A stretch of DNA of 54,445 nt. Source: Actinomycetota bacterium (GTDB taxonomy: Bacteria; Actinomycetota; Actinomycetes; Nanopelagicales; Nanopelagicaceae). The position numbers and the translations under genes are program-made. Below the pieces are notes generated by a model that was not told where the DNA came from, did no database searches, and was given only the letters and a program-made list of their open reading frames with translations. The DNA is taken from assembly GCA_009698615.1 (NCBI GenBank), contig WLPU01000012.1:1-54445 (forward strand), given 5' to 3'. Positions 36,564 through 39,648 of this stretch are shown here, one piece after another (within the stretch, counting starts at the first letter, position 1; every line of letters starts with the position of its first letter).

Positions 36564-36592
36564 ACCTTAAACAAGCGTGGCTAGAAGGTCAA
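36564..36592 (-). promoter_or_regulatory. Promoter of garA-ftsR operon with iron-box-like palindrome
   Basis: On the minus strand TTGACC (36587-36592, overlapping the gcvH stop), 17-nt spacer, TAAGGT (36564-36569): close to consensus. The -10 lies inside an inverted repeat, TTAAGGT and ACCTTAA with an 8-nt centre (36549-36570). Its left 12 bases, TAAGGTAAGCCT, match a DtxR/IdeR half-site, but the full site is one base longer than the usual 19. Confidence 0.6.
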
Positions 36593-36969
36593 GCGGTAAT
36601 TTCTATATATTGCTGAGCGGACAACAAATCCGCAGAATGTTCGGTTATTACTATCTCGCAGAGCCATCCTTGGCCATACGGATCGCTGTTAAGGGTTTCG
36701 GGAGCACCAACTAAGGAATCGTTAATCGCAGCAATCGTTCCACTCACCGGAGCATAAATTTCGGAAACACTTTTCGTCGATTCAACTTCACCGCACACCT
36801 TGCCAGCGGTAACTTTTTCCCCCACGTTGGGAAGCTGCACATACACAATGTCTCCCAAGGCGCTCTGCGCGAAATCGGTTATTCCCATGCGCACTCTTTG
36901 GGCAATTTGCGTGTCAGCAATCCATTCGTGCTCTTTTGTGTATTTCAAATCATCGGGTACGTGTGACAC
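36589..36969 (-). CDS. gcvH: Glycine cleavage system H protein
   Basis: Lipoylated carrier of the glycine cleavage system, about 126 residues. The lipoyl lysine lies in VESTKSVSEIYAP (about 62-66), and KYTKEHEW opens the domain. I chose GTG 36969 because GGAGG lies 6 bases upstream and homologues begin here (SHVPDDLKYT); the upstream ATG at 37008 adds 13 residues with no homology. It follows pgsA by 44 bases, where most actinobacteria carry DUF881 and small basic protein genes. Confidence 0.94.
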   Translation of the reverse strand: MSHVPDDLKYTKEHEWIADTQIAQRVRMGITDFAQSALGDIVYVQLPNVGEKVTAGKVCGEVESTKSVSEIYAPVSGTIAAINDSLVGAPETLNSDPYGQGWLCEIVITEHSADLLSAQQYIEITA

Positions 36970-37013
36970 GAAGGTCCTCCATCTCTTGGCACTCTCCCTG
37001 CGAGCCACCCACT

Positions 37014-37574
37014 CTAGTTTGCTCCCGAGAGTTTCCGCCAGCCAGAAATGAAGTAATCAACCCCGGTGGAAAGGTAGAGCCCTACTCCCCACAGCGCGAA
37101 ACTCCAGCCCACTACAAATGCAATATGTCCTAGCGTCGTGTCAGCCAAAGCTAGAAGTAGGAATGGGAACGCATAGAGAAGATTGAAAGTCGCAGCTTTG
37201 CCAGAATACGTCACGGTCAGCAAGCCCAGGCCTCGGCGCTTCATAGCCAAAGTTAAAATCCCTAAAATAAGATCGCGAAGGACAATAACTACAATCAACC
37301 ACAATGGAATAGCGCCACGGATGAGTAAAACTATTAACGTAACGGCGATGTAGGCACGATCAATGGCGGGATCCATAATTTCACCCAAACGCGAGGTTTG
37401 ATTCCACGCCCTGGCCAATTTCCCATCGAAATAATCAGTGGCACCACCCACAGCCAATACCGCAACCGCCCATGCATCGGCATGGCGACTCAATGCTAAA
37501 TAAGCAAAGAGCGGAATGCCCAATGCTCGCAGGAAAGTCAAGGCATTAGGGATCGTATAAATAGTGCGATTCAT
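37014..37574 (-). CDS. pgsA: CDP-diacylglycerol-glycerol-3-phosphate 3-phosphatidyltransferase
   Basis: Makes phosphatidylglycerol phosphate at the membrane; 186 residues with about four helices. The CDP-alcohol transferase signature D-x2-DG-x2-AR-x8-G-x3-D-x3-D is intact at about 47-73 (DYFDGKLAR to DPAIDR). A close homologue (PgsA2-type) sits before gcvH in mycobacteria. Its ATG begins one base after the discriminator base of tRNA-Pro and has no ribosome-binding site, so its mRNA would be leaderless after tRNA processing. Confidence 0.92.
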   Translation of the reverse strand: MNRTIYTIPNALTFLRALGIPLFAYLALSRHADAWAVAVLAVGGATDYFDGKLARAWNQTSRLGEIMDPAIDRAYIAVTLIVLLIRGAIPLWLIVVIVLRDLILGILTLAMKRRGLGLLTVTYSGKAATFNLLYAFPFLLLALADTTLGHIAFVVGWSFALWGVGLYLSTGVDYFISGWRKLSGAN

Positions 37575-37575
37575 G

Positions 37576-37649
37576 TCGGAGCGACAGGATTTGAACCTGC
37601 GACAACCAGACCCCCAGCCTGGTGCGCTACCAAGCTGCGCTACGCCCCG
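37576..37649 (-). tRNA. tRNA-Pro(GGG)
   Basis: A 74-nt cloverleaf on the minus strand. The acceptor CGGGGCG pairs with CGCTCCG, discriminator A. The anticodon arm CCAGG-CTGGGGG-TCTGG reads GGG with G37. The T-arm is GCAGG-TTCAAAT-CCTGT. CCA is not encoded; the next base after the discriminator is C and then the pgsA ATG. It appears to be co-transcribed from cmk-der. Confidence 0.97.
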
Positions 37650-37651
37650 GC

Positions 37652-37665
37652 GGCGATTTCTCGCC
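37652..37665 (-). other. GNRA-type hairpin before tRNA-Pro
   Basis: GGCGA-GAAA-TCGCC on the minus strand sits in the 28-base spacer between the cmk-der stop and tRNA-Pro, just 2 nt before the tRNA 5' end. It may stabilise or separate the two products of a shared transcript. Confidence 0.4.
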
Positions 37666-37677
37666 AGATGTCAGATC

Positions 37678-39648
37678 CTAGTCGCGCTCCCGTACGCGAA
37701 CGGCAACTTGGACCGGTGTACCTGGGAAACCGAACTCTTCGCGTAAGCGGCGCTCAATAAACCGGCGGTAAGAGCTTTCCAAAAATCCTGTAGTAAATAT
37801 GACAAAGCGCGGGGGTGCGATGCCAGCTTGAGTGGCGTAAAGAATTTTGGGTTGCTTGCCTCCACGTACAGGTGGCGGTGTAGCTGCAATCAATGTGCCC
37901 AAGAAGGAGTTGAGTTTGCTGGTGGGTACGCGACGTTCCCAACTTGCGATTGCCGTCCGTAAGGCAGGGGCAAGACGATCCCGATGCCATCCCGTCTTGG
38001 CGGCCAAATTGACCCGCTGGGCCCACTCCACCTGATCCAGATGACGGTCAATTTCCCGATCCAGCGTCCTCTGGCGATCTTCATCTACCAGATCCCATTT
38101 ATTCATGACAAGAATCAATGCTTTTCCAGCTTCCTCAACCATCGTGATGATGCGCAAATCTTGCTCAGAAATCGCAACTGAAGCATCTAAAACAACAACC
38201 GCCACTTCTGCACGCTCGAGTGCAACTTGGGTACGAAGCGTCGCATAATAATCAGTCCCACTTTGTTGATTTGCACGGCGCCGGATTCCCGCAGTGTCGA
38301 TAAATCTCCAGGTCGATCCGCCAAGTTCAATAAGCTCATCAACCGGATCACGAGTCGTGCCCGCAACATCATCAACCAACGAACGATTCTGTCCAGCCAA
38401 AATATTGAGCAAGCTTGATTTACCAACATTAGGGCGACCGATGAGAGCTACTCGACGATATCCATCTTGTACCTGAGCGCCACCAACTTCCGGCAAGACC
38501 TCTGCGATCAAATCGAGAAGGTCTCCGCTTCCGCGGCCATGGAGGGCTGATACAAAATGAGGTTCACCTAAACCTAGATTCCAGAGAATATGCGCATGCG
38601 CCTCATCGACTTCGCCATCGATTTTGTTGGCAACCAAAATGATTGGCTTCTTCATTTTTCGCAGATCTTGTACAAGAACATCATCTTCATCAAGGGCGCC
38701 CACTTGGGCATCGACAACGAAAAGCAAAACATCGGCTTCCTTCATCGCAAGCTCGGCACTCAAACTCACTCCTATTGAGATCCCATCCGGTTTAGATTCC
38801 CATCCCCCCGTGTCCATCACCATGAAATCGCGACCATTCCAATTGCATTCATATGTCACTCGATCACGTGTAACACCTGGCGTATCTTCAACTATTGCTT
38901 CACGCCTACCAAGAAATCGATTGATGAGTGTTGATTTTCCAACGTTTGGACGTCCTAATAACGCAACTATTGGAAGGCCTAGCAAGCGACGTTCTTTGAG
39001 CAACTCCCAGATGCGCTCGGCAGTTTCTTCAAGATTGATCTGAGTTGAGTCAATTTCTATTGCATCACTTGCCATCATCAACGGTGAAGCTTTTCGCGTG
39101 GAATCCGTGGTATCTCGTTCTTCTAGGGAAGCGGCTACTTTCTCCACCTCTGACAGGGATTTTTCATCATGTAACTCGCGATCGCGTCGCACCGCTCGCG
39201 CAGCAAGGTCAGCGGTGAGGAATATCTTCAAGCCAGCATCTGGAGCCACCACGGTTCCAATATCGCGACCCTCCACAACTATGCCTCGTTCGGCTGCAGC
39301 AATTAATTTTTGTTGGAGCAATAAAAGAACTTGTCGAACTTCGGGATAGGTGCTTACTTCGCTCACACGTTCGGTAACTTCGGCAGAACGAATCTCGCGA
39401 GTGATATCTACATCACCCGCAAAAATTTTCGGAGCGTTGGGATCGCTATTGAAAGTCAAAGGTGATTGACCTAAGGATTTCACAAGATCTTTTGGTGATG
39501 TAACTTTATCTCGTAGTGCAAGCCAAGCAACGCCGCGGTAAAGCGCTCCAGTATCTAAATAACTCCAACCAGCACGTTGTGCAATTGCTTTAGCTGTGCT
39601 GGATTTGCCTGCGCCGCTTGGTCCATCAATTGCTATAACGACACCCAT
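37678..39648 (-). CDS. cmk-der: Cytidylate kinase - GTPase Der fusion
   Basis: A single 656-residue chain. Residues 1-220 are cytidylate kinase (P-loop GPSGAGKSS at 9-17, which phosphorylates CMP and dCMP). Residues ~226-656 are Der/EngA, with two GTPase P-loops (GRPNVGKST at 232-240 and GRPNVGKSS at 404-412) and a C-terminal KH-like domain, needed for 50S ribosome assembly. The two genes are neighbours in most actinobacteria, and fusions are known in some (for example bifidobacteria). No internal stop separates them. A TTGTTC-16-TAGACT promoter and leaderless ATG precede it. Confidence 0.95.

Follow-up and report, generated by a model that had tools for sequence, protein, structure and literature searches.

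The analysed window is a stretch of 54,445 nucleotides, contig C4 of a 1.5-Mb genome that is 99.98% complete. Judged from Cls, its nearest named relatives are actinobacteria from fresh water that bear the labels Planktophila or Nanopelagicaceae, and the family is accordingly called Nanopelagicaceae here. Its members are tiny, and few freshwater bacteria are as abundant as those of the acI group. On the minus strand the order of the features is a cmk-der fusion, 28 nt, tRNA-Pro(GGG), a single C, cls and gcvH (Table 1). The ARAGORN call of the tRNA also takes in the C at 37575, while the Rfam call runs from 37649 to 37576. The layout given in the original prediction, with the discriminator A73 at 37576 followed by one C and an ATG at 37574-37572, was reproduced with ARAGORN, with Rfam and in the sequence itself, and cls starts at tRNA position 75. 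As had also been predicted, the CCA of the tRNA is not encoded (C-A-T follows A73), no Shine-Dalgarno sequence fits between the tRNA and the ATG, and a later in-frame start costs the conserved N-terminus, since no alternative start retains the IPNALT motif. Upstream of the ATG the frame of cls contains no start codon before a stop is reached.

Table 1. Features at the tRNA-Pro(GGG)-cls junction, in minus-strand order
Feature	Position	Strand	Description
cmk-der fusion (cytidylate kinase / GTPase Der)	37678..39648	-	Upstream gene, 28 nt 5' of the tRNA
Hairpin GGCGA-GAAA-TCGCC	37652..37665	-	Two bases 5' of the tRNA; kept in most junction-bearing relatives
tRNA-Pro(GGG)	37576..37649	-	74 nt; discriminator A73 at 37576; ARAGORN and Rfam RF00005 (58.5 bits)
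C74	37575..37575	-	Sole base separating A73 from the start codon; tRNA position 74
Probable cls, CDP-alcohol phosphatidyltransferase	37014..37574	-	186 aa; Pfam PF01066; NCBIfam ClsA versus pgsA scores
gcvH (glycine cleavage H protein)	36589..37008	-	Downstream, 5 nt past the cls stop

The loop of the upstream hairpin is mostly GNRA-like across the junction loci. Nine sequences with a tetraloop pair to 100% and one pair covaries (GC/GU/AU), a result that is not significant against shuffled sequences (58/500). The hairpin may possibly form the 3' end of the upstream der mRNA once RNase P has cut. Elsewhere in the same genome, small contigs carry two genes that resemble tRNA-Gly(ACC), score low and have an encoded CCA (G000:C14:1882-1953 and C21:2547-2618); they are possibly tRNAs of mobile elements.

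The gene after the tRNA had been taken for pgsA. Its product reaches 208.3 bits against the NCBIfam model ClsA NF053678 (curated cut-off 240), by far the best family, and 88.4 bits against the pgsA model TIGR00560, below the cut-off of 109.1. The true pgsA lies on contig C12 of the same genome (G000:C12), where a paralogue passes the pgsA cut-off with 126.6 bits, and a second paralogue on contig C3 passes the cut-off for phosphatidylinositol phosphate synthase. The pgsA identity of the gene at 37014..37574 was dropped because of the ClsA and pgsA scores (208 versus 88 bits). Judged from the family scores, the gene is probably a cardiolipin synthase (cls) of the eukaryote-like actinobacterial type; cardiolipin synthases of the CDP-alcohol type are known in actinobacteria (PMC5695855).

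The junction is conserved in related genomes, as the original prediction required. Relatives were found by homology to Cls, which recovers the loci without assuming any spacing between tRNA and start codon; the same holds for the pdtaR loci recovered by homology below. In all 13 distinct der-tRNA-Pro(GGG)-cls loci, A73-C is followed directly by ATG or GTG, so that the one-base spacing is found in 13/13 loci with the tRNA. The tRNA-Pro(GGG) is present in 12 of the 21 genomes of genus g1 and is always situated between der and cls. In the remaining nine genomes no close match to it was found anywhere in the genome, and cls lies a few bases from the stop codon of der, abuts it or overlaps it. The Pro junction was also seen in genera g3, g5, g25 and g27. 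Because the Cls of g3 and g5 is about 50-60% identical to that of the window, the junction is probably old. The Cls tree, weakly supported, implies that the state of the junction changed at least five times; this is consistent with, but no proof of, an old junction followed by several losses. A narrowly drawn search pattern undercounts the Pro junction, missing genera with GTCCCG acceptor stems, which are picked up by a wider pattern. The wider pattern presets the spacing, and its counts were therefore kept out of the statistics and replaced by a census of offsets. The matches to the pattern at class level are mostly due to chance, or are tRNAs with an ORF of 12-61 aa behind them.

For the census, the Rfam tRNAs of the window genome and of three further family genomes were collected and their flanks scored at every offset, with mechanically defined ORFs of at least 70 codons, not curated gene calls. 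Among the matches listed from these four Nanopelagicaceae genomes, an ORF begins exactly at position 75 in 15 of 160 tRNAs, the four genomes being related and the 15 cases not all independent. At any other offset between -12 and 60 the mean is 0.67 ORF starts. A distant actinomycete used as class-level outgroup gave no position-75 start in 36 tRNAs. Ten distinct tRNA-gene pairs are represented. The window genome has four junctions, Pro(GGG)-cls, Ala(TGC)-ppiA, Leu(CAA)-pdtaR and Leu(CAG)-gdpD, the last three being located on G000:C27 and G000:C23. The other pairs in the census are Ala(GGC)-leuS, Arg(TCG)-YeiH-like, Arg(TCT)-orn, Ala(GGC)-SDR, Asn-ACT protein and Met-homocysteine S-methyltransferase, and a pattern search in other genomes added Lys-transporter and Leu(GAG)-apt. 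The names YeiH-like, SDR, ACT and Lys-transporter were read from the sequence without a family match. The cultured acI strains Ca. Planktophila versatilis and IMCC25003 also have several such junctions. In genus g5 (G024:C59) a tRNA-Ile is followed by a 38-aa ORF of the DLW-39 family with GTG at position 75. A specific link to phospholipid synthesis, as originally proposed, is not borne out, since the junction also serves pdtaR, ppiA, leuS, orn, apt, gdpD and a homocysteine methyltransferase; with genes of such mixed function, the position-75 start looks like a general expression layout. At the junctions there is zero leader and no Shine-Dalgarno room between tRNA and RTG. Genes situated farther from a tRNA often have a Shine-Dalgarno-like run, as is often the case for ppiA without the junction, for example AAGGAG where the tRNA is 37 nt away.

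Position 74 is a C in essentially all tRNAs, both in the 160 listed from the four family genomes and in the outgroup; the single exception in the census is presumably a misaligned gene. The full CCA is encoded in only 46 of the 160 tRNAs, among the matches listed. The same pattern, C74 encoded nearly without exception and C75 and A76 mostly not, was noted across G000, G295, G075, G021 and G036. Cleavage inside the CCA of Propionibacterium acnes, in which tRNase Z is absent, is always between the Cs (PMC3848588), and most CCA-encoding tRNAs of Streptomyces coelicolor are likewise cut between the Cs (PMC4681348). If the cut is made here as in those two species, after C74, the downstream RNA would for that reason begin exactly with the start codon. 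Some CCA-encoding tRNAs of P. acnes are instead cut a few bases farther downstream; such a cut, if used in Nanopelagicaceae, would remove the start codon and count against tRNA punctuation. S. coelicolor has tRNase Z, and the cut after C74 need not be the work of one enzyme everywhere.

The original prediction pointed to RNase Z. No RNase Z was found in six Nanopelagicaceae genomes from five genera, the best matches being ComEC-like and RNase J-like ORFs at 20-25 bits; the genuine RNase Z of the outgroup scores 125 bits with the same model and 472 bits with the NCBIfam model specific to it. A wider search for metallo-beta-lactamases in five of the six genomes gave just RNase J, ComEC-like and glyoxalase-like proteins. 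The 3' nuclease acting at these junctions is thus probably not RNase Z, to judge from these searches. About 70% of the tRNA genes are without an encoded CCA in a family where RNase Z was not found in six genomes.

The junction, its recurrence and conservation, the encoded C74, the absence of Shine-Dalgarno and -10 sequences and the failure to find RNase Z in the genomes searched were read from the sequence. The best-supported reading of the locus, with a probability of roughly two in three, is tRNA punctuation, in which excision of the tRNA with a cut after C74 frees a leaderless cls mRNA, the layout being shared by other tRNA-gene pairs. The tRNA-Pro(GGG) and cls, which are adjacent on the same strand, would be part of one transcript. 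RNase P would cut at the 5' end of the tRNA and a 3' tRNA-processing endonuclease directly behind C74. The tRNA would then lack just CA, and the mRNA released downstream would have RTG as its first three bases, on which ribosomes would initiate by the leaderless route. In mycobacteria, leaderless initiation requires an ATG or GTG at the 5' end, and such a codon suffices (PMC4633059). The same layout would serve several further tRNA-gene pairs in the family. On this reading the claim that cleavage at the tRNA 3' end would release a leaderless mRNA holds in its main part; a one-base leader would not result, since a cut after C74 would give no leader at all. No report of leaderless mRNAs made by processing at bacterial tRNA ends was found among open-licence papers.

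Other explanations of the layout were weighed. Tight spacing could result from genome compaction, with tRNA and gene co-transcribed and translation starting at an internal site, either of the uncut precursor or of a 3' fragment that still bears some tRNA sequence. The genomes are compact, and the abutting or overlapping der and cls of the tRNA-free relatives agree with this. Compaction alone, however, predicts a spread of small gaps, and in the four family genomes just one ORF with 70 or more codons begins within the 10 bases past the junction position (at offset 3), against 15 at offset 0. This near-miss is a gene of 364 aa behind a tRNA-Phe of G075, with the sequence C-GTT-ATG. The folded acceptor stem, moreover, has no room for a Shine-Dalgarno sequence, and we regard internal initiation as unlikely.

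A promoter within the tRNA gene could instead initiate transcription at the RTG and so produce an ordinary leaderless mRNA. Leaderless initiation is widely used by actinobacteria, and bacterial leaderless mRNAs are thought to come mainly from transcription starting at +1 or from the action of stress toxins. Those of mycobacteria arise by transcription and not by processing (PMC4633059). Nanopelagicaceae appear to share the habit: TANNNT is found at -12 of RTG starts 10 times in the window, versus 1-2 times at most other offsets, and the peak at -12 recurs in other family loci (29), which indicates that leaderless genes made by transcription are common in the family. At the junction starts listed, however, TANNNT is absent from -12 to -7 in every case; these bases belong to the acceptor and T-stem and are fixed by tRNA function across many unrelated tRNAs. 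An internal promoter also leaves unexplained why many different tRNAs share one register, and it has a low probability, on the order of a one-in-ten chance.

The junction could also be a matter of chance, or of an inherited accident in the calling of starts, the true starts lying downstream. Behind C74, chance alone would put an RTG in about 1/30 tRNAs, and in some of the ORFs GTG or TTG codons are present further along. The excess in the census (15 versus 0.67 per offset) is hard to reconcile with this, and so is pdtaR. In 22/22 family loci recovered by homology, pdtaR follows tRNA-Leu(CAA)-C-ATG, while the number of residues ahead of the core ranges from 2, as in MKILVAEDE, to an extension of 31, their sequence varying too. 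In 11 of the 22 loci no start codon besides the position-75 ATG is available up to the core's first codons. Judged from these loci, the spacing to the tRNA is what is fixed in pdtaR, and the N-terminus is not. In proteins of the MKILVAEDE type a later start would delete the ILVAEDE core, just as it would delete IPNALT in Cls, and the accident is very improbable.

That RNase Z cuts after A73, as it does after the discriminator in other bacteria, leaving a one-base C leader in a device that ties tRNA maturation to phospholipid synthesis, can be given hardly any weight in view of the enzyme not being found in the six Nanopelagicaceae genomes and of the unrelated functions of the junction genes.

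The tRNA punctuation preferred here is best known from mitochondria. The punctuation model was reportedly put forward by Ojala in 1981 for animal mitochondria. There, as would be the case here, 5' and 3' tRNA nucleases free messages whose start lies at or near the 5' end and which are translated without a leader. Unlike the mitochondrial arrangement, the Nanopelagicaceae junctions are found on a bacterial chromosome, concern only some of the genes and place the start at position 75 after an encoded C74. The mitochondrial 3' cut is made by RNase Z (ELAC2), the enzyme not found in the six genomes, and the present case is a proposal read from genome sequence. In Escherichia coli, the tRNA and mRNA of metY-nusA and tyrU-tufB are co-transcribed and parted by processing, and the mRNA has a normal leader with a Shine-Dalgarno sequence, unlike the junction genes, which have room for neither. 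The leaderless mRNAs of mycobacteria, Streptomyces and P. acnes resemble the proposed messages in the 5' RTG, in the lack of a Shine-Dalgarno sequence and in the use of both ATG and GTG. Their ends, however, are transcription starts 7 bases past TANNNT, while at the junctions the box is missing and tRNA processing is proposed. P. acnes and S. coelicolor are also actinobacteria with the cut between C74 and C75 that is proposed here, and P. acnes is likewise without tRNase Z. The accessible parts of the two studies tie this cut to no mRNA start; in Nanopelagicaceae it would coincide with the start codon.

For the family as a whole, the evidence leans slightly towards tRNAs acting as general punctuation, an endonuclease that replaces RNase Z cutting after every C74 and selection having repeatedly brought start codons to position 75; excision of the tRNAs would thereby mature leaderless mRNAs of housekeeping genes. 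If true, this would be a constitutive, processing-based route to leaderless mRNA in free-living bacteria, parallel to that of mitochondria. The junctions would then give a genomic footprint of the nuclease responsible for the actinobacterial cut between C74 and C75, its cut site being readable from the permitted start positions.
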